Shown in pieces: positions 5,968 to 31,247 of a stretch of DNA of 33,534 bases. Source of the stretch: a virus. Every line of letters starts with the position of its first letter. Position 1 is the stretch's first letter. The translations under genes and the position numbers were made by a program. The notes below the pieces were generated by a model. It was given only the letters and a program-made list of their open reading frames with translations, made no database searches and was not told the origin of the DNA. The stretch lies in the IMG/VR virus record IMGVR_UViG_3300031566_000214, positions 1 to 33,534 of that record. One strand, 5' to 3'.

Positions 5968-6075
5968 CAACCCGACAGTAAGCGGGCGACGTCGCGGTGA
6001 CTGATCATCACCGCGCTGTGTGCCAAGAAGTGCAAGGCCGTCTGGGGCCAGACACCCCGGCGGCCTTTTCTTTTT
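5964..6075 (+). terminator. Two-hairpin element, copy 2, ending in an intrinsic terminator
   Basis: TTGACAA overlaps the portal stop (5964-5970). Hairpin 1 pairs CGCGGTGA (5993-6000) perfectly with TCACCGCG (6008-6015), loop of seven. A 20-base linker with GCCAAGA leads to hairpin 2: GGCCGTC then GGGG on one arm, CCCC then GGCGGCC on the other (6036-6065), with one bulged U, followed by TTTTCTTTTT. It ends 36 bases before the chosen start of the protease-capsid gene. Hairpin 1 differs in sequence from copies 1 and 3 but keeps its pairing, while linker and hairpin 2 are nearly constant. TTGACA has no recognisable -10 at 16-18 bases. Confidence 0.82.
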
Positions 6076-6111
6076 GGCCTCGCCCGCATGAAGCAGACAA
6101 GGAGACGACAG

Positions 6112-15999: not shown

Positions 16000-16106
16000 T
16001 TGACAATCAAGATGCGGGCGACGGCACGGTGGGTAGCTCCCGCCGCGCTGTGTGCCATGAAGTGAAAGGCCGTCTGGGGCCAGACACCCCGGCGGCCTTT
16101 TCTTTT
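16000..16106 (+). terminator. Two-hairpin element, copy 3, ending in an intrinsic terminator
   Basis: TTGACAA (16000-16006) is followed by a GCGGGCGAC box as in copy 2. Hairpin 1 pairs CGGTGGG (16027-16033) with CCCGCCG (16039-16045), one U-G pair, loop of five; two more G-C pairs form outside an A-C mismatch. After a 22-base linker, hairpin 2 (16068-16097) is identical to copy 2 and runs into TTTTCTTTT. It ends 45 bases before the tail tube start. Confidence 0.82.
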
Positions 16107-16151
16107 GGCCTCGCCCGCCAGACCACCAACACACACAGGAGGTATTTGACG

Positions 16152-25248: not shown

Positions 25249-25893
25249 CTACTTCGCGGGCTTGCCCGCCGGACTTGTGGCGGGTTTACCCGGCCAGGTG
25301 ACTTCGGTATCCCGAAGCGTAAAACCATATAGAACATTGGGGCGATTCCTGCCTACCAGAGAATCACGACCCTCTATCCACACCTTCTCGATGATCCCTG
25401 TAAACTCAATGCGCATTTGCTTTGTCACTGCCGATAGCGCCGGATCAACCATTGGCCCGAGGCTAACTGTAAATGCTGCATCTTGAGTACCCCATCTCTG
25501 GATGCGTACCCCATAGGTCGATGTGTGGGTTGAGAACCCAACATCTTCCACGATGGCATGTCCAGAAAATCGTTGTCCTTTCACGCTCTCATGCCATTGC
25601 TTCTGCTGTGCATCCGTCCATCCGTGGTACGTTCGCAAGTTCGGCAAGTCCGCTATCACCAAAGCCTTCGCCTCATCCGTCTTGTTCGTATCCGCTTCTG
25701 CCTTTGATTCCACGCCCATCGCCTCATGCACCTTGACGTCCTGGAGGGTTTCCAGTTGCGCCTCCATGCGCTTGAGCCTGCCCTCCAAGATCGCCACACG
25801 CCCCCTGAGCTCGTCGAACTCCTCGCGGCTCACTGTTGCGGCCGCACCGAGCAGCAGCACGCCCACAATCCCCAATGTCAGATAGCGTTTCAT
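25249..25893 (-). CDS. Predicted exported protein with signal peptide and coiled coil
   Basis: A 214-residue protein of unknown family. MKRYLTLGIVGVLLLGAAAT is a good Sec signal or N-terminal anchor. Residues 23-50 form a short coiled coil (VAILEGRLKRMEAQLETLQ). The rest, with QQKQWHESVKGQRFSGHAIV and a strand-rich part up to VLYGFTLRDTEVTW, looks like a small beta domain, perhaps OB-like; that is a guess. AAGGAGG precedes the ATG. It is the last gene of the minus-strand block. An exported protein made apart from structural genes could alter the host envelope. Confidence 0.65.
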   Translation of the reverse strand: MKRYLTLGIVGVLLLGAAATVSREEFDELRGRVAILEGRLKRMEAQLETLQDVKVHEAMGVESKAEADTNKTDEAKALVIADLPNLRTYHGWTDAQQKQWHESVKGQRFSGHAIVEDVGFSTHTSTYGVRIQRWGTQDAAFTVSLGPMVDPALSAVTKQMRIEFTGIIEKVWIEGRDSLVGRNRPNVLYGFTLRDTEVTWPGKPATSPAGKPAK

Positions 25894-25905
25894 GGTCAGT
25901 CCTCC

Positions 25906-26520
25906 TTATTCAAATGGTGGATTGTATTGTCGGGCATAGAGGGTGCCCCCTATGTTCTGATCCACGAGCACCCACCCAACGTGATGGGGCCGGTCTCGGT
26001 CGTTCACGGCCCCGGTGCCATCCCAACCCGTCAGACAAATCTCGTCATCAAAGAAGTGGACAAGAAAACACGTAGATTGCCCCCGCACCACGTACTCCGT
26101 GAGGGCGTCCCGACTATAATGTCCTTTGGCGATGACCACGGCTAACCGTTCGAGTTCTTCTATGCTCGTACCCCGCTCCACAATCGCCCGCACTTGGTGA
26201 CGCCGACCGGATGGAGCACGTTGGAATATGTGTCGTGGTAAACTCACGGGGCGCGGTGGGGGAGGGGCCGCAGGCGCAGACGATTCTATCTGGGTTTCTA
26301 TTGCCGCGACCGCTTCTGTGGTAGACGTATCCTGATCGCGATTTCCAAGCATTGCCGCACAAAACACGCCCCCAATGATCAGCAGCGCAAAGAGCAGCAC
26401 CCCGCACCCCAGATCATCCCGGCCGCCCTTGCCGCCGCCGACAACCTGCGTCTTGTGGCTGCCATAGCCAACCCGCACGCCCTTCCCGCTCCAACTCAGG
26501 AACTTTCCGCGCCGCCCCAT
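25906..26520 (-). CDS. Single-span membrane protein, unknown family
   Basis: A 204-residue protein. The basic, glycine-rich N-terminus (about 36 residues, VVGGGKGGRDD) is followed by one span, LGCGVLLFALLIIGGVFCAA (37-56), then a proline-rich linker (SSAPAAPPPPRPVSLPRHIF) and a folded end with CFLVHFFDDEICLTGWDGTG. With positive charges before the span, the C-terminal domain should face outward. ATG 26520 is chosen over GTG 26535: GGAGG lies eight bases before it. I do not recognise the outer domain. Together with the next gene it could form an envelope function such as exclusion of other phages; speculative. Confidence 0.6.
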   Translation of the reverse strand: MGRRGKFLSWSGKGVRVGYGSHKTQVVGGGKGGRDDLGCGVLLFALLIIGGVFCAAMLGNRDQDTSTTEAVAAIETQIESSAPAAPPPPRPVSLPRHIFQRAPSGRRHQVRAIVERGTSIEELERLAVVIAKGHYSRDALTEYVVRGQSTCFLVHFFDDEICLTGWDGTGAVNDRDRPHHVGWVLVDQNIGGTLYARQYNPPFE

Positions 26521-26567
26521 GTTCCATGCCTCCACTGGTCAGTTCCCCTCGCCGCCCCGACATGTTC

Positions 26568-26596
26568 ACGATAGCGCCTATCCCACATGCTGTCAA
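26568..26596 (-). promoter_or_regulatory. Candidate sigma-70 promoter for the membrane-protein gene
   Basis: On the minus strand TTGACA (26596-26591) is followed after exactly 17 bases by TATCGT (26573-26568). The -35 is perfect and the -10 matches four of six positions. It overlaps the last codons of the 44-residue zinc-ribbon gene and stands about 45 bases before the start of the membrane-protein gene, so that gene and the exported protein can be transcribed separately from the mini-genes. Confidence 0.5.
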
Positions 26597-26727
26597 GACC
26601 CTCCGCCGACCGGCGGGCGCACATACGGCTTGTCCCATTCATACGTCTTGCACCGGGGGCAGACGCGCGGATGTTCCACGCGCGCCTCCCATTCGTGCCC
26701 GCAGCGTTGACACTTCAGCATCTTCAT
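26593..26727 (-). CDS. 44-residue zinc-ribbon protein
   Basis: The protein begins MKMLKCQRCGHEWEARVEHP and continues VCPRCKTYEWDKPY: two CxxC knuckles 13 residues apart make a complete mini zinc ribbon. GAGGAG lies six bases before ATG, in the leader shared by its neighbours. It is likely a small nucleic-acid-binding or adaptor protein; no partner is evident. Confidence 0.7.
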   Translation of the reverse strand: MKMLKCQRCGHEWEARVEHPRVCPRCKTYEWDKPYVRPPVGGGS

Positions 26728-26747
26728 CGTCCGCTCCTCAGTTAGAG

Positions 26748-27005
26748 TTACTTGCCCTCAGCCTTGGCGATGACGGCGCAAAACTCGCAAAAGTTGTCAG
26801 GGCGTTTCATTAGGATGCGTGCTCGCGGGACTGATGTGTCGCCAACCATTGTGGCATGAGCATCACACACAACAGTGTATTTGCCGTCAACGTCGAGCCC
26901 TTGCTTTCCAGCGTCATATATGACAACCTTTGTGCCGGGTGCAAAGGGGTTCGTCCGTTCGGCTATGTAGCCGGCCTCCGAGGAATGTTGCTTGCGTCTC
27001 GCCAT
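26748..27005 (-). CDS. Small hypothetical protein of the mini-gene array
   Basis: An 85-residue protein, MARRKQHSSEAGYIAERTNP at the start, with a beta-rich centre (GTKVVIYDAGKQGLDVDGKY, TVVCDAHATMV) and a CEFC pair near the end. I do not know the family. A small SH3-like or ribbon domain is possible. The start at 27005 is fixed by GAGGAG six bases upstream; a longer reading to 27068 would run through the neighbouring gene and has no SD. Confidence 0.6.
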   Translation of the reverse strand: MARRKQHSSEAGYIAERTNPFAPGTKVVIYDAGKQGLDVDGKYTVVCDAHATMVGDTSVPRARILMKRPDNFCEFCAVIAKAEGK

Positions 27006-27015
27006 CGTCCGCTCC

Positions 27016-27201
27016 TCAGTTAGTGTTGTCCGCGACGATCTGGGCCTTCCTCTCCCGCGCCGCATCAAATGCGGCCTGCCGTGTCGGATACGACTCCTCG
27101 CCAGCGTTGATCACCAACTCGCTGCCCCGGTAAATGCCCCATGTCCACCATGTCTGCTCACCATCGTTCATGTGCGCCACCTCGATTTTCAGGCGTTTCA
27201 T
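27016..27201 (-). CDS. 61-residue hypothetical protein of the mini-gene array
   Basis: The protein starts MKRLKIEVAHMNDGEQTWWT and continues WGIYRGSELV and SYPTRQAAFDAARERKAQIV. The pattern (W-x-IY-x-G, then YxTxxxAxxAA) recalls small single-domain proteins of one beta sheet with a packed helix, like the YegP/DUF1508 type; this is tentative. Its TGA stop is fused with the SD of the next gene (TGAGGAG), so the array is tightly coupled. Confidence 0.6.
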   Translation of the reverse strand: MKRLKIEVAHMNDGEQTWWTWGIYRGSELVINAGEESYPTRQAAFDAARERKAQIVADNTN

Positions 27202-27214
27202 CGTCCGTCCCTCC

Positions 27215-27418
27215 TCAGTCATCGTAGCGATCAAAACACCCCTGACACATCCCACTGAGCGCATGGGCTCGGGCTATCGGCGTTCCGCACCGGCGGCACT
27301 TCGTCATCCGCTGCGGCGGGATCGCATGGGGCTGGAGCCGTTCAGACTCCGCCTCGGCGACCGCCTCGCTCGTCGGGTCTACATCTGCCGGCACGCGGCC
27401 AATTCCGAACTCGCCCAT
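27215..27418 (-). CDS. 67-residue zinc-ribbon protein
   Basis: A 67-residue protein with an acidic N-terminal half and a C-terminal four-cysteine unit: KCRRCGTPIARA, then MCQGCFDRYDD. This is a short treble-clef or zinc-ribbon type, common in phage and host regulators. GAGGAGG precedes ATG within the shared leader. The stop TGA overlaps the SD of the following 61-residue gene. Confidence 0.65.
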   Translation of the reverse strand: MGEFGIGRVPADVDPTSEAVAEAESERLQPHAIPPQRMTKCRRCGTPIARAHALSGMCQGCFDRYDD

Positions 27419-27435
27419 CGTCCGTCCCTCCTCAG

Positions 27436-27468
27436 TTAGAGTTGCTTGGCTTCAAGTATGCGTGCCAT
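27436..27468 (-). CDS. Possible 10-residue leader peptide
   Basis: ATG at 27468 has GGGAG nine to ten bases upstream and encodes MARILEAKQL before TAA at 27438. The stop lies in the shared leader of the next gene. The end of this mini-ORF (AAGCAACTCTAACTGAGGAG) differs by one base from the end of the gene at 26748, where AAGTAA gives the stop, so it may be the leftover of a lost array gene. Confidence 0.25.
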   Translation of the reverse strand: MARILEAKQL

Positions 27469-27483
27469 CGGTCTTCTCTCCCT

Positions 27484-27738
27484 TCAATCTGGAATAGAAA
27501 CCCATACCTCTTTGCCGTCGGTGTTGACATGGCGGTAGGTTGCAATCCACCGTTCGCGCCGCGCCAACTCTGCCAGGGCGTCTATTGTCTTAGCCGTTGT
27601 GATAACCCCGCGTGCCGTGCGCATCGCGTAAGTGTTCTGGCTATCGGGGCCGCCCGTCGTAGCGCGGTAGATACGCACCGTCATTCCGGCGTATCCCAGC
27701 GCATCCGCCATCAGCTGTTCCGTATTCGCAATCTCCAT
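27484..27738 (-). CDS. 84-residue hypothetical protein, first gene of the array
   Basis: The protein reads MEIANTEQLMADALGYAGMT at the start, then TVRIYRATTGGPDSQNTYAM, a helix (TIDALAELARRERW) and YRHVNTDGKEVWVSIPD. I do not recognise the family; a small alpha-beta fold is likely. ATG 27738 is preferred to 27780 because GAGGAG lies six bases before it in the shared leader. It is the first gene behind the strong promoter at 27788-27816. Confidence 0.6.
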   Translation of the reverse strand: MEIANTEQLMADALGYAGMTVRIYRATTGGPDSQNTYAMRTARGVITTAKTIDALAELARRERWIATYRHVNTDGKEVWVSIPD

Positions 27739-27787
27739 CGCCTGCTCCTCCGTTAGTGCTGTCTGTATGCTCTGTATCATTATCAGT

Positions 27788-27816
27788 ATTATACCACCGG
27801 ATAGTCACCGTGTCAA
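27788..27816 (-). promoter_or_regulatory. Perfect consensus sigma-70 promoter for the minus-strand block
   Basis: Minus strand: TTGACA (27816-27811), 17 bases, TATAAT (27793-27788). Both hexamers and spacing match consensus exactly. Transcription would begin near 27781 and reach the ATG at 27738 and the genes to 25249. Such a promoter would need no phage activator, so the block can be expressed from a silent prophage unless repressed. Confidence 0.88.
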
Positions 27817-27948: not shown

Positions 27949-28485
27949 CTATCTATGCACCACCCGCGCTGCGGGCTTGCGCGCGCGGGCGCGCCCGCGC
28001 GTAAGGGGCGTCCCGCACCGGTAGACCTCCACCGTCTGGCCCTGGGGGAGCACGCGCCACAGCACGCAGAAGCAGCCCAGGGCCGCGCGCCTCAGCATCG
28101 CTCGCCGGCGTGGGCGCGACCAGAGGGGGATCGTCCGGGCGATGGGATAGCCGTTGGGCTCGCGCCAATCCGGCCGCTCGAGCGTGAGCAGGTAGGGGGG
28201 GCGCCCGGAGTGAAAGAGCATCGTTTGGAGTTGATCGGGCGAAAGGGCGGCGGAAAATCTTTCGGCCAGGAATGCATTATTCCGCGTGGAAACAGGCAAT
28301 CGGGCATGGTCTGGCTTTTTGCGCTTGACTGGTGGCGGCTGATCGCGTAGCATTGCGGTCGTTGGTTCAATGGAGCAGTGGGCATGGAGCGACGCGACAC
28401 CAATATCAGATGCAAACGGATGAGGGGCATTTTCCCCTCGCTTTTTTTTGCTTTTCTTACGTCCGATAATGTATACCCCGCTCAT
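27949..28485 (-). CDS. Basic hypothetical protein behind a regulated promoter
   Basis: A 178-residue protein of unknown family. It opens MSGVYIIGRKKSKKKRGEN (very basic), has a hydrophilic middle, then PDQLQTMLFHSGRPPYLLTL, DWREPNGYPIARTIPLW and VLPQGQTVEVYRCGTPL, and ends in an arginine-rich tail on extremely GC-rich DNA. A DNA or RNA binding role is plausible from charge only. GGGAG lies eight bases before ATG 28485. It sits behind the strong promoter 28600-28628 and an 11-bp dyad, the usual place for a regulator. An opposing plus-strand frame exists, but promoter direction favours this strand. Confidence 0.42.
   Translation of the reverse strand: MSGVYIIGRKKSKKKRGENAPHPFASDIGVASLHAHCSIEPTTAMLRDQPPPVKRKKPDHARLPVSTRNNAFLAERFSAALSPDQLQTMLFHSGRPPYLLTLERPDWREPNGYPIARTIPLWSRPRRRAMLRRAALGCFCVLWRVLPQGQTVEVYRCGTPLTRGRARARKPAARVVHR
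27982..28001. repeat. Perfect 20-bp GC palindrome
   Basis: CGCGCGGGCG followed directly by CGCCCGCGCG is a perfect palindrome with 10-base arms. It lies near the end of the basic hypothetical gene. Beside it CCCGC/GCGGG forms another small stem. It may be a protein-binding site, a structural block for polymerase or only a by-product of arginine and alanine codons. Confidence 0.55.
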
Positions 28486-28517
28486 CTCACAAGCTCCCAT
28501 TTCCAGAAGCGTCCTGC

Positions 28518-28557
28518 GGACAGGCGGGTAGTTGTCTTGGCAGACCCCCGCCTGTCC
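28518..28557 (-). promoter_or_regulatory. 11-bp inverted repeat in the leader of the basic gene
   Basis: GGACAGGCGGG (28518-28528) and CCCGCCTGTCC (28547-28557) are perfect arms around an 18-base spacer. The site lies about 35-75 bases downstream of the predicted minus-strand start point and before the ATG at 28485. It may be an operator for a dimeric repressor or an RNA stem-loop in the leader. Confidence 0.55.
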
Positions 28558-28576
28558 ATGACGGGAGGGGGCCATA

Positions 28577-28604
28577 TTGCATAGCTCTCTCCATGTACTA
28601 TCAT
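28577..28604 (+). promoter_or_regulatory. Candidate divergent promoter, plus strand
   Basis: TTGCAT (28577-28582), 16 bases, TATCAT (28599-28604). The -10 has one mismatch; the -35 is weak. Its -10 occupies the same bases as the -10 of the opposite promoter, so both could not be used at once. It would serve the plus-strand early genes beginning at 28753. Confidence 0.35.
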
Positions 28605-28628
28605 ACCTATTTTGGGGTGTCTTGTCAA
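28600..28628 (-). promoter_or_regulatory. Strong sigma-70 promoter, minus strand
   Basis: Minus strand: TTGACA (28628-28623), 17 bases, TATGAT (28605-28600), one mismatch in total from consensus. It points to the basic hypothetical gene (ATG 28485). The bases around its -35 (GGGGCTTGACA) are shared with the promoter at 27788-27816, suggesting common origin or a common regulator. Confidence 0.8.
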
Positions 28629-29253: not shown

Positions 29254-29593
29254 CAGTCCCAAGGCGGCTGAATTCAGGCGGCGAGCCCATCAGAAGGCGC
29301 GTCAGCATTACCCGGTTGCCCGCCAGATTTCGCGGCTCTCCTACGAGGTTGGCTGGCTGGCCGGGGAATGCGAAGGACTTGCGCGGGACAACCGCAAGCT
29401 CCGGCGCGAACTCTCTGAACTCCAGGAAGCCCCAGTCCATGACGCGCGACTGAAGGCGCTCAACGGGGCGCTGAAACTTACTGAGGCTGCGCTTGCCAAG
29501 GGCGGGCAGGAAGCGCCGTCGCGGGAAGCGCGGCTCCAGGAACTCGCGCGGGCGACGGGTGAGGCCAGCGCAGAAAGCGAGATGGGGATATGA
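29243..29593 (+). CDS. Coiled-coil hypothetical protein
   Basis: A 116-residue helical protein: a basic start (EFRRRAHQKARQHYPVARQI), then SRLSYEVGWLAGECEGLARD and a run of heptad-like Leu/Glu/Arg (NRKLRRELSELQE). It probably forms a coiled coil. AGGAGA lies six bases before ATG 29243. The longer frame from 29201 covers the preceding span and is not supported. No family recognised. Confidence 0.6.
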   Translation: MADDSPKAAEFRRRAHQKARQHYPVARQISRLSYEVGWLAGECEGLARDNRKLRRELSELQEAPVHDARLKALNGALKLTEAALAKGGQEAPSREARLQELARATGEASAESEMGI

Positions 29594-29919
29594 GTAAGCA
29601 CACACCAGGACCTTGGATGCACTGGGGTGAAGGAGACGAAAACGATGTGTCCGCCGATGTTGGTGGCATTGCGCACAGCATCTGCCTGTTCACCAGCTAC
29701 TGGCCGACAGATCAATGTAGGGCCAACGCCCGGCTGATAGCCGCCGCACCGGAACTCCTGGAAGCGTTGGCCGACCTGATCGGGCTAGCCAAGGCAGCCA
29801 TGGGGGAGGCCAATAGGGACGGGGCAGAATACGAAATAGAAGAGGAGTTGTCGACTGCCCGCGCCGCAATCGCCAAGGCAGAGGGCAAACCCAGTGAGCA
29901 AGGGGATATCCGCGCATGA
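29590..29919 (+). CDS. Conserved phage early protein (TPGPW...NARLIAAAPELL type)
   Basis: A 109-residue protein with the well-known phage pattern HTPGPWMHWGEG at the start and ANARLIAAAPELLEALADLI in the middle, then a helical acidic end. Such proteins are very frequent in early regions of phages infecting diverse bacteria; I know no firm function. ATG overlaps the previous stop (ATGA). Family recognition is good, role unknown. Confidence 0.75.
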   Translation: MSKHTPGPWMHWGEGDENDVSADVGGIAHSICLFTSYWPTDQCRANARLIAAAPELLEALADLIGLAKAAMGEANRDGAEYEIEEELSTARAAIAKAEGKPSEQGDIRA

Positions 29920-30095
29920 CACTTGCGAGTCCAGAACTGCCGGGCCTTGACGCTTGGATTGAAGGCGAGCCGCCCGACGATTCACCCCCGCGCGATCCTT
30001 ACGGGCCGGAGTTTGACGCAGAGTTGGAACGCTGGCGGCGGCACGTCGCCCCGCAGATAGAACAGGCACTACAGCGCATGGAGCAAACGCAATGA
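29916..30095 (+). CDS. 59-residue acidic hypothetical protein
   Basis: The frame from ATG 29916 (overlapping the previous stop, ATGA) encodes MTLASPELPGLDAWIEGEPP, DDSPPRDPYGPEFDAELERW and a helical end to EQTQ, stopping at 30095 where the next ATG overlaps (AATGA). The unbroken chain of four-base overlaps on both sides argues for a real gene. It is proline-rich, acidic and of unknown function. Confidence 0.6.
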   Translation: MTLASPELPGLDAWIEGEPPDDSPPRDPYGPEFDAELERWRRHVAPQIEQALQRMEQTQ

Positions 30096-30316
30096 GCTAC
30101 GTCACGATCTCGATACGGTGTCCCTGGTGCGGCGAGCCTGACAAGCGTGAGATGGATGAGGAGGTGATGCCGAGCACGCTTCGGTGCCGGCAGTGCGGGG
30201 CGCGGATACCCATCGAGGCTGAGCCAATGCCACGACGGGCAATGGTGGGAAGCGACAGTGCAGAGGGCGGGCGACACTCCCTGCACGATCTTGCACACCA
30301 TCACCCAGCCGTATGA
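30092..30316 (+). CDS. 74-residue zinc-ribbon protein
   Basis: The N-terminal 45 residues form a ribbon: VTISIRCPWCGEPDKREM, then LRCRQCGARIPIEAE. The C-terminal 30 residues are low complexity with several histidines and may be disordered. Start overlaps the preceding stop. It precedes the exonuclease gene by 16 bases and is probably co-expressed with it. Confidence 0.65.
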   Translation: MSYVTISIRCPWCGEPDKREMDEEVMPSTLRCRQCGARIPIEAEPMPRRAMVGSDSAEGGRHSLHDLAHHHPAV

Positions 30317-30332
30317 GTAGGAGAGCATAACA

Positions 30333-31247
30333 ATGGCAGGTGGATTGATAGCAGAGCAACGCGCACTGAGACGTACAGGGGTAAGCAGCACTGACCTGCG
30401 CGTGATCCTCGCCTACTACGCGGGGCGCGAAGGAAAGCAGGTGCCCTGGCCGCTGTATGACGGCGAGAGTGCGCTGGCACTCTATGCCGAGAAGCTGGGC
30501 AAGGGCCGTCCGCATGAGGATACCGTTGTCACGAAAGCGGGGCGGCACTTGGAGGCGGGCGTGCTGGCCTGGTATGCCGAGGAGACGGGGGCGCACCTTA
30601 TCCCCAATACTGGCGGCACGTGGAAGTGCAAGCACAATCCGCGGCACATGGCGACGCCTGACGGGTTCGCATCCGCGCAGCCATACGTCGGCGCGGAGGA
30701 GGGCGTCGAGGTCAAGACCGTCTGGGTGCGCGAACAGAGCGCCCGCTGGGGCGAGAAGCCGGATGCCGTCCCCGTCGAGTACTACCTGCAATGTCAGTGG
30801 TGCATGTACGTCTGCGATATGCCGCGTTGGGATATCGCCGCCCTGTTGGCTGGCGGGTTCGCGGTGGATTTCCGTATCTACTCGATTCCCCGGAACGATG
30901 CGCAGATTCCACGGCTTGTCGAGGTTGCGGACAGATTCCTTGCCGAGCATGTTGACCCGCAGGTTCCCCCGGAGCCGGATGGCAGTCGGGCAGCGGCTAT
31001 GGCGCTTGCTGACCTCGCGCCACTGAATCCCGCGCCGTGCCGCCTGACCATGAACGGTGAGGAGGACGAACTGATAGCCAACCTCGCGGACGCGGACGCA
31101 GAGTACAAGGCGGCGGCGAAACGCCGCGAACTCCTGAAGCAGCAGATTATCGCGCGCGCGAATCAGGCGGGGATCACGGGCATAGAAACGCCTGGCGGGC
31201 AGCGCGTCTACCGTGACAAGGCCGGACGCGTCCAAGTCAAAGTGTAA
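30333..31247 (+). CDS. YqaJ-like viral recombinase (lambda-exonuclease fold)
   Basis: A 304-residue nuclease of the YqaJ/lambda Exo group. Signs in order: TGVSSTD (15-21), G-x-x-LE with Glu74, ATPDGF with Asp110, GVEVKTV with Glu126 and Lys128, and YYLQCQW (150-156). These form the usual metal-dependent D-E-x-K site. The enzyme would resect double-stranded ends so that the RecT-type annealing protein encoded next can load. A helical C-terminal part (about 240-285) may contact that partner. AGGAG precedes ATG. Confidence 0.9.
   Translation: MAGGLIAEQRALRRTGVSSTDLRVILAYYAGREGKQVPWPLYDGESALALYAEKLGKGRPHEDTVVTKAGRHLEAGVLAWYAEETGAHLIPNTGGTWKCKHNPRHMATPDGFASAQPYVGAEEGVEVKTVWVREQSARWGEKPDAVPVEYYLQCQWCMYVCDMPRWDIAALLAGGFAVDFRIYSIPRNDAQIPRLVEVADRFLAEHVDPQVPPEPDGSRAAAMALADLAPLNPAPCRLTMNGEEDELIANLADADAEYKAAAKRRELLKQQIIARANQAGITGIETPGGQRVYRDKAGRVQVKV

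Follow-up and report, generated by a model that had tools for sequence, protein, structure and literature searches.

Start-Associated Sequences (SAS) have been described in Cluster K mycobacteriophages and in Cluster EF Microbacterium phages, with the consensus 5'-GGGATAGGAGCCC in the former and GGGAAAGGACCCC in the latter, and are present in about 10–19 copies across the non-structural genes, mostly in gaps of more than 50 bp (PMC3203893, PMC7302621). Direct repeats located at gene boundaries are known from gene 14 of Corndog, a Cluster O mycobacteriophage, bracketed by a 17-bp repeat found as a single copy in relatives, and from gene 60 of YungJamal; in these two cases a single small gene lies between the copies of a 17- or 24-bp direct repeat (PMC4351075). 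The Ltp-type superinfection exclusion genes of temperate streptococcal phages (TP-J34) lie in the lysogeny module beside the integrase gene (PMC3952083). The locus described here, a minus-strand row of five small genes each preceded by a similar leader, is compared below with all three.

The phage contig and its row of small genes

The window, that is the whole stretch of DNA analysed, is a linear, incomplete IMG/VR phage contig of 33,534 nt (IMGVR_UViG_3300031566_000214) with a G+C content of 60.7%. It comes from an uncultivated tailed phage with a host among the Planctomycetota, to which nearly all bacterial genomes carrying TerL relatives belong. The closest bacterial TerL (90% over the best segment) is encoded on a fragmentary contig of 60.9% G+C from a Candidatus Brocadiaceae genome, and the host is perhaps a relative of the Brocadiaceae. 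No named phage is similar to the right arm, the 8.3-kb right end has no DNA match, and genes 3, 4, and 5 of the row have no protein match among named phages. A sibling contig from another IMG record is 99.99% identical to the window and spans only its positions 1–20226, the small-gene row lying outside; both contigs end at the same base at position 1, which is suggestive of either a genuine genome end or an assembly break in both. The general gene order is as follows.

Left of TerL, plus strand: genes for a ParB-like protein and a C5 methyltransferase
1473, plus strand: TerL
4462, plus strand: portal
6088, plus strand: head protease/major head
Between the head genes and the tape measure, plus strand: sugar-, glycosyl-, and methyl-transferase genes
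17372, plus strand: tape measure, after which tail genes run to 25248
Between the tail genes (end 25248) and the early genes, minus strand: the small-gene row with genes 6 and 7
Right of the row, plus strand: early genes, with RecE at 30333 and RecT at 31213

Neither an integrase gene nor an S24 repressor or S24 domain was found in this incomplete contig. Comparison with the sibling contig drew attention to a 107-nt direct repeat, 89% identical, at 5982–6087 and 16014–16118, i.e., 10 kb apart. Amid the head genes, the segment 8841–12817 codes for a TylF-type methyltransferase, two glycosyltransferases, and a nucleotide-sugar epimerase, by which the virion could possibly be glycosylated.

The row comprises the following features, listed from its right-hand, upstream end.

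27788–27816, minus strand: putative sigma-70 promoter, TTGACA-17-TATAAT with TG before the -10 (12/12 consensus positions)
27736–27760, minus strand: leader copy 1 (diverged), AGCACTAACGGAGGAGCAGGCG-ATG, with a 29-nt match to leader 4 (4 mismatches, score 17)
27484–27738, minus strand: gene 1, 84-aa orphan, no family
27436–27468, minus strand (read from 27468 to 27436): mini-ORF of 10 codons, MARILEAKQL
27416–27448, minus strand: leader copy 2, its left part common with copy 5 and its right part (ACTGAGGAGGGACGGACGATG) with copy 3
27215–27418, minus strand: gene 2, 67 aa, CxxC...CxxC, bracketed by a 21-nt perfect direct repeat
27199–27219, minus strand: leader copy 3, holding the gene 2 stop TGA
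27016–27201, minus strand: gene 3, 61-aa orphan
27003–27027, minus strand: leader copy 4, holding the gene 3 stop TGA
26748–27005, minus strand: gene 4, 85 aa, CxxH...CxxC, bracketed by a 25-nt repeat (24/25)
26725–26749, minus strand: leader copy 5, returned by both the pattern and the repeat search
26593–26727, minus strand: gene 5, 44 aa, zinc-ribbon-like, CxxC...CxxC, with matches to zinc-ribbon and rubredoxin-like models of Pfam/NCBIfam that are weak and do not reach the cut-off
25906–26520, minus strand: gene 6, 204 aa, one transmembrane-like segment at residues ~41–57 (hydropathy 2.78), ordinary RBS
25249–25893, minus strand: gene 7, 214 aa, predicted N-terminal membrane anchor, coiled coil, and C-terminal beta (OB-fold-like) domain

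With its leaders the row extends over 27760–26593; the minus-strand array reported in an earlier note on this DNA is real, but not within the limits given there (25249–27758). Genes 1–5 look coding, since by the codon statistics of the phage's other genes the frame of each scores best of its six, in agreement with the five coding regions of 44–85 residues claimed previously (84, 67, 61, 85, and 44 aa). They had also been called unrelated, which holds at the sequence level, but genes 2, 4, and 5 each have paired Cys/His residues (CxxC...CxxC or CxxH...CxxC) of a zinc-knuckle-like type. No product of genes 1–5 matches a Pfam or NCBIfam family above the curated cut-off, PHROG and PADLOC returned nothing convincing for the row proteins, and none of the PADLOC defence models matched any of eight proteins at E ≤ 1. 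The small proteins are accessory orphans. The match of gene 4 in L001 and that in L185, the sole database match of gene 3, were discarded as spurious, lying inside another frame or a larger gene, and the zinc-ribbon match in G053 as generic; the structure prediction for gene 4 (pLDDT 44) was unusable.

The repeated leader and its junctions

The leader array is real and uncommon. It consists of four strong copies and a diverged one, each ahead of one small gene, before the start codons at 27738 (the diverged copy), 27418, 27201, 27005, and 26727, all on the minus strand; the sequences preceding these starts are, in this order, AGCACTAACGGAGGAGCAGGCG, TCTAACTGAGGAGGGACGGACG, GATGACTGAGGAGGGACGGACG, AACACTAACTGAGGAGCGGACG, and AACTCTAACTGAGGAGCGGACG. 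The gapped pattern CTGAGGAG-N0-6-GGACGATG has four matches in the window, all within the row and on the minus strand, and was found in none of 100 shuffles, confirming the claim of a near-identical leader before five short minus-strand genes. A repeat search of the window groups these copies into families of 25 and 30 nt, giving the leader the form CTAACTGAGGAGCGGACG. In a pairwise comparison of the ~170–196 possible SD-start sites of the window, leader pairs scored 20, 18, and 14 against 12 for the best pair elsewhere, and when the region was matched to the whole window, with 20 shuffled controls giving a best chance score of 16, the significant matches were the leaders (22, 21, 18, and 17) and one other. 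When families of similar leaders ahead of dissimilar genes were compared across 159 related phage and prophage sequences (2.1 Mb), this one was the largest, followed by four-copy families in Pirellula phages. The similarity is not limited to the SD core, as CTAACT upstream and GGACG downstream are conserved as well. The pattern is absent from 25 planctomycete genomes and therefore does not reflect a general RBS habit of the host; a host-wide RBS preference was dropped on this ground.

The upstream stop lies 17 nt from the start of gene 2, 13 nt from that of gene 3, 10 nt from that of gene 4, and 20 nt from that of gene 5. The fusion of stop codons with the SD, noted previously in two cases, is real and concerns three: the TAA of the mini-ORF and the TGA of genes 2 and 3 all lie inside the leader, whose TAACTGA provides stops in two frames. 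The best-matching leader pairs are neighbours around one gene. Thus, the ends of gene 2 are bracketed by ACTGAGGAGGGACGGACGATG, a 21/21-nt direct repeat, and those of gene 4 by AAC(A/T)CTAACTGAGGAGCGGACGATG, a 24/25-nt direct repeat. Leader 2 is chimeric, its left part being that of leader 5 (CAAGYAACTCTAACTGAGGAG) and its right part that of leader 3, while an inserted GGA sets the two right-hand leader types apart. In the case of leaders 2 and 5, the identity reaches upstream into the last codons of the preceding gene. Recombination between the bracketing copies would be expected to delete gene 2 or gene 4 and to leave a perfect leader with a start codon. The repeat search found no inverted repeats at the junctions, RNA folding (z from -1.4 to +0.8) indicated nothing unusual and no common structure, and Rfam gave no match; integron-like cassettes were dropped, as the window has no recombinase and the junctions no fold.

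The mini-ORF shares CAAGYAACTCTAACTGAGGAG with the gene 4/5 junction, in support of the 10-codon remnant recognized earlier in the same pattern. Its 3' end has nearly the same bases, in the same frame, as the end region of gene 4 (GARGSCAAGYAACTCTAACTGAGGAG), with CAA in place of the TAA stop of gene 4; it begins with ATGGCACGC, and gene 4 with ATGGCGAGACGC. It is probably a gene remnant, an internally deleted gene being the simplest reading of these short similarities.

Both SAS and the leader are short asymmetric repeats situated at the RBS, a few bases before the starts of non-structural genes from different, unrelated families; they are conserved beyond the pairing with rRNA, have mostly one orientation, and may hold the stop codon of the upstream gene. 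Nevertheless, the leader is SAS-like and not SAS, because the two differ in several defining respects. The leader does not match the SAS consensus, and the host is also different; there are five copies in one operon instead of ten or more across the non-structural genome; they occupy tight stop/start junctions and not wide gaps; the extended SAS has a 17-bp imperfect inverted repeat upstream, whereas the junctions of the window have neither inverted repeats nor an unusual fold; and SAS are kept across related phages, while the leader is absent from 46 whole phage records of relatives. What appears new in comparison with SAS is a coupler of stop, SD, and start at the level of the RBS, together with direct repeats that bracket genes 2 and 4 exactly. 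The latter arrangement resembles that of Corndog gene 14 and YungJamal gene 60, but relatives of those phages have the empty site with one repeat copy, whereas none was found for the row, and in the window two genes of one row use the same repeat family, with the RBS and start included in the repeat.

Relatives of the row and of the envelope pair

The search of related phages for the leader with other genes behind it, proposed earlier, brought no leader array and, instead, cassette rows with an unrelated element. Neither genes 1–5 nor the array were found in 80 TerL relatives or 72 bacterial TerL loci; among the phage relatives, apart from the partial sibling contig without the row region, none was closer than ~73% in TerL. 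Elsewhere in IMG/VR, the gapped leader has only four matches, single copies before unrelated genes at gene starts, which are about chance level by our estimate (18 specified bases, five gap lengths) and were set aside. No second phage with the same leader and another gene set was found in the searched relatives, genomes, and IMG/VR.

Pirellula phages, with TerL ~60% identical to that of the window, have a minus-strand row of the order F3-F4-F6-F1-F0-F5-F2, in which most genes are preceded by CGGCTTGAGGTTATTCGAACCGCATGGCTCATGTGTGTCATCRCGTAAACGATTC...AACGGAGA. Such rows were seen in L042, L030, L031, L027, L037, and L021, to the left of TerL, with a promoter-like element of ~65 nt for each gene. 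In the listed rows, L019, L021, and L045 lack F4, while F6 occurs in L016, L027, and L037 alone and F5 in some; in the alignment of L021, L030, L027, and L039, F4 and F6 are present or absent as units of element plus gene bracketed by the element. Like the window, these TerL-related phages (L021, L027, L030, L042) have minus-strand small genes, there of ~82–104 aa, most of which stand behind a common start element; in the Pirellula phages the genes are gained or lost as units, and the element is unrelated in sequence to the leader. These observations support the existence of repeated-start cassette rows in this virus group, with another element at another place.

Of the exchangeable cassette row postulated earlier, the bracketing of single genes by the leader and the gain and loss of units in the relatives' rows stand, but no exchange was seen behind this leader. 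Exchange in the window's own row is plausible, with good support in relatives. How phages take up tiny accessory genes one by one is a standing question of phage mosaicism, and a leader that is a translation joint combined with a bracketing repeat makes it testable, as each repeat pair predicts a neighbour with one gene less or one gene more. The same principle is seen in the relatives, where a different repeat is used, and the row marks orphan small proteins in phages of Planctomycetota, a poorly studied group.

The two envelope proteins placed by the earlier note at the end of the row are supported by membrane-anchor-like segments in the products of genes 6 and 7. Both genes lack a full leader, and the pair may therefore have been added independently of the leader row. 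The gene 7 product has a hydrophobic N-terminus followed by a coiled coil, its anchor and topology being predictions; its model (pLDDT 53) has weak Foldseek matches, mostly to OB-fold proteins (E ≥ 0.006), which hints at an OB-fold-like C-terminal domain. Phage G037 (L091), with a TerL of 67% identity across the matched part, has a gene 7 homologue (43% over 46 residues) on the same strand and in the corresponding position, flanked by the genes for an S24 repressor and a tyrosine integrase; the repressor occupies the position of the window's small genes. Among 25 planctomycete genomes, gene 7 relatives are present in one, namely the Brocadiaceae genome in which the closest TerL was found, where one of them follows an integrase gene and a zinc-ribbon/transmembrane gene of 70 aa. 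Gene 7 and its relatives are firmly similar over 46–70 residues only (anchor and coiled coil).

Since gene 7 relatives adjoin the integrase or repressor in G037 and the Brocadiaceae genome, the place of the row appears, as judged from gene order, to be that of a lysogeny module. The gene 7 relatives resemble Ltp of TP-J34, a surface-anchored protein, in their predicted anchoring and their place beside the integrase in an opposite-strand lysogeny module (PMC3952083), but the window has no integrase or repressor, and the likeness is drawn from place and predicted anchoring. Because Ltp-type genes also adjoin the integrase in such a module, a superinfection-exclusion-like role may be proposed from this place and anchoring, and a lysogeny-linked envelope function of this kind is likelier than lytic host takeover.

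Explanations of the row

The reading we favour, to which we assign about an even chance, is that of an accessory operon with a single promoter, in which the leader is both a translation coupler and a recombination homology and which belongs to a lysogeny-linked conversion module. The leader TAACTGAGGAG(GGA)CGGACG-ATG would end the upstream frame, with stops in two frames, and allow re-initiation 10–20 nt later, so that unrelated small genes would be co-expressed, presumably in the lysogenic state and from the promoter at 27788–27816, the probable start of the operon. As the same ~21–25 nt recur at each start, they could provide short homology for recombination in a phage encoding RecE and RecT, and, genes 2 and 4 being exactly bracketed by direct repeats, the loss or gain of one bracketed gene would restore a perfect leader and start codon. 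The row is most likely a lysogeny-linked module because the gene 7 family adjoins the repressor and integrase elsewhere; its end products would act in the envelope, in a superinfection-exclusion-like manner, with the small proteins as loosely attached passengers. A possible, if doubtful, version is that the stop/SD/start forms a shared joint of recombination and translation into which any small gene bearing it could slot by RecET-type short-homology recombination, which, if true, would amount to a cassette system that works without a dedicated integrase.

Selection on translation alone, with an efficient stop-SD-start coupler copied or converged at the junctions and no part in gene exchange, seems rather unlikely. 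It would account for leaders located exactly at starts and for the overlap of stop and leader at three out of four downstream junctions, and the single IMG/VR matches, being also at gene starts, suggest that the string is a workable RBS by itself. However, the conservation includes bases beyond the SD (up to 24/25 nt), the identity at leaders 2 and 5 enters the preceding gene's last codons, and the best pairs bracket single genes.

SPO1 carries a host-takeover module, the small proteins of which are produced early and shut off the host. A lytic operon of this type is suggested by the small orphan proteins, the strong promoter consensus, and the strong RBS, but it is improbable here, the row being on the minus strand, opposite the RecE/RecT early genes, with two envelope proteins at its end. 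The role in host takeover or defence suggested in the earlier note found no homology support (no PADLOC match), and the place of gene 7 relatives in lysogeny modules points elsewhere. Tandem duplication of leader plus gene, followed by divergence of the genes beyond recognition while the leaders stayed, would agree with the mini-ORF, which looks like a gene shortened by an internal deletion and resembles gene 4 at its start and 3' end, with the Cys pairs common to genes 2, 4, and 5, and with the ATGAA start of genes 3, 5, and 7, but is very unlikely, as the five proteins have no apparent similarity to one another and leaders this short would not be expected to outlast the similarity of the genes behind them unless selected.

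Several features were observed to the right of the row. A minus-strand ORF upstream of it (27949–28628, 178–208 aa, weak coding signal) is preceded by a second strong promoter-like site (11/12); its leader region contains an inverted repeat, and a G+C-rich palindrome marks its end. At 30092–30313 there is a gene for a Lar-like (restriction alleviation) zinc-ribbon protein, slightly under the Pfam cut-off. Finally, the 3' end of gene 4 (26779–26752, minus strand) matches 29861–29888 (plus strand) in 25 of 28 nt, above all shuffles; this site is the 3' part of an early gene (29590–29919, plus strand), and the match may stem from another pasted end or from a C-terminal motif (IAKAEGK) common to the two proteins.
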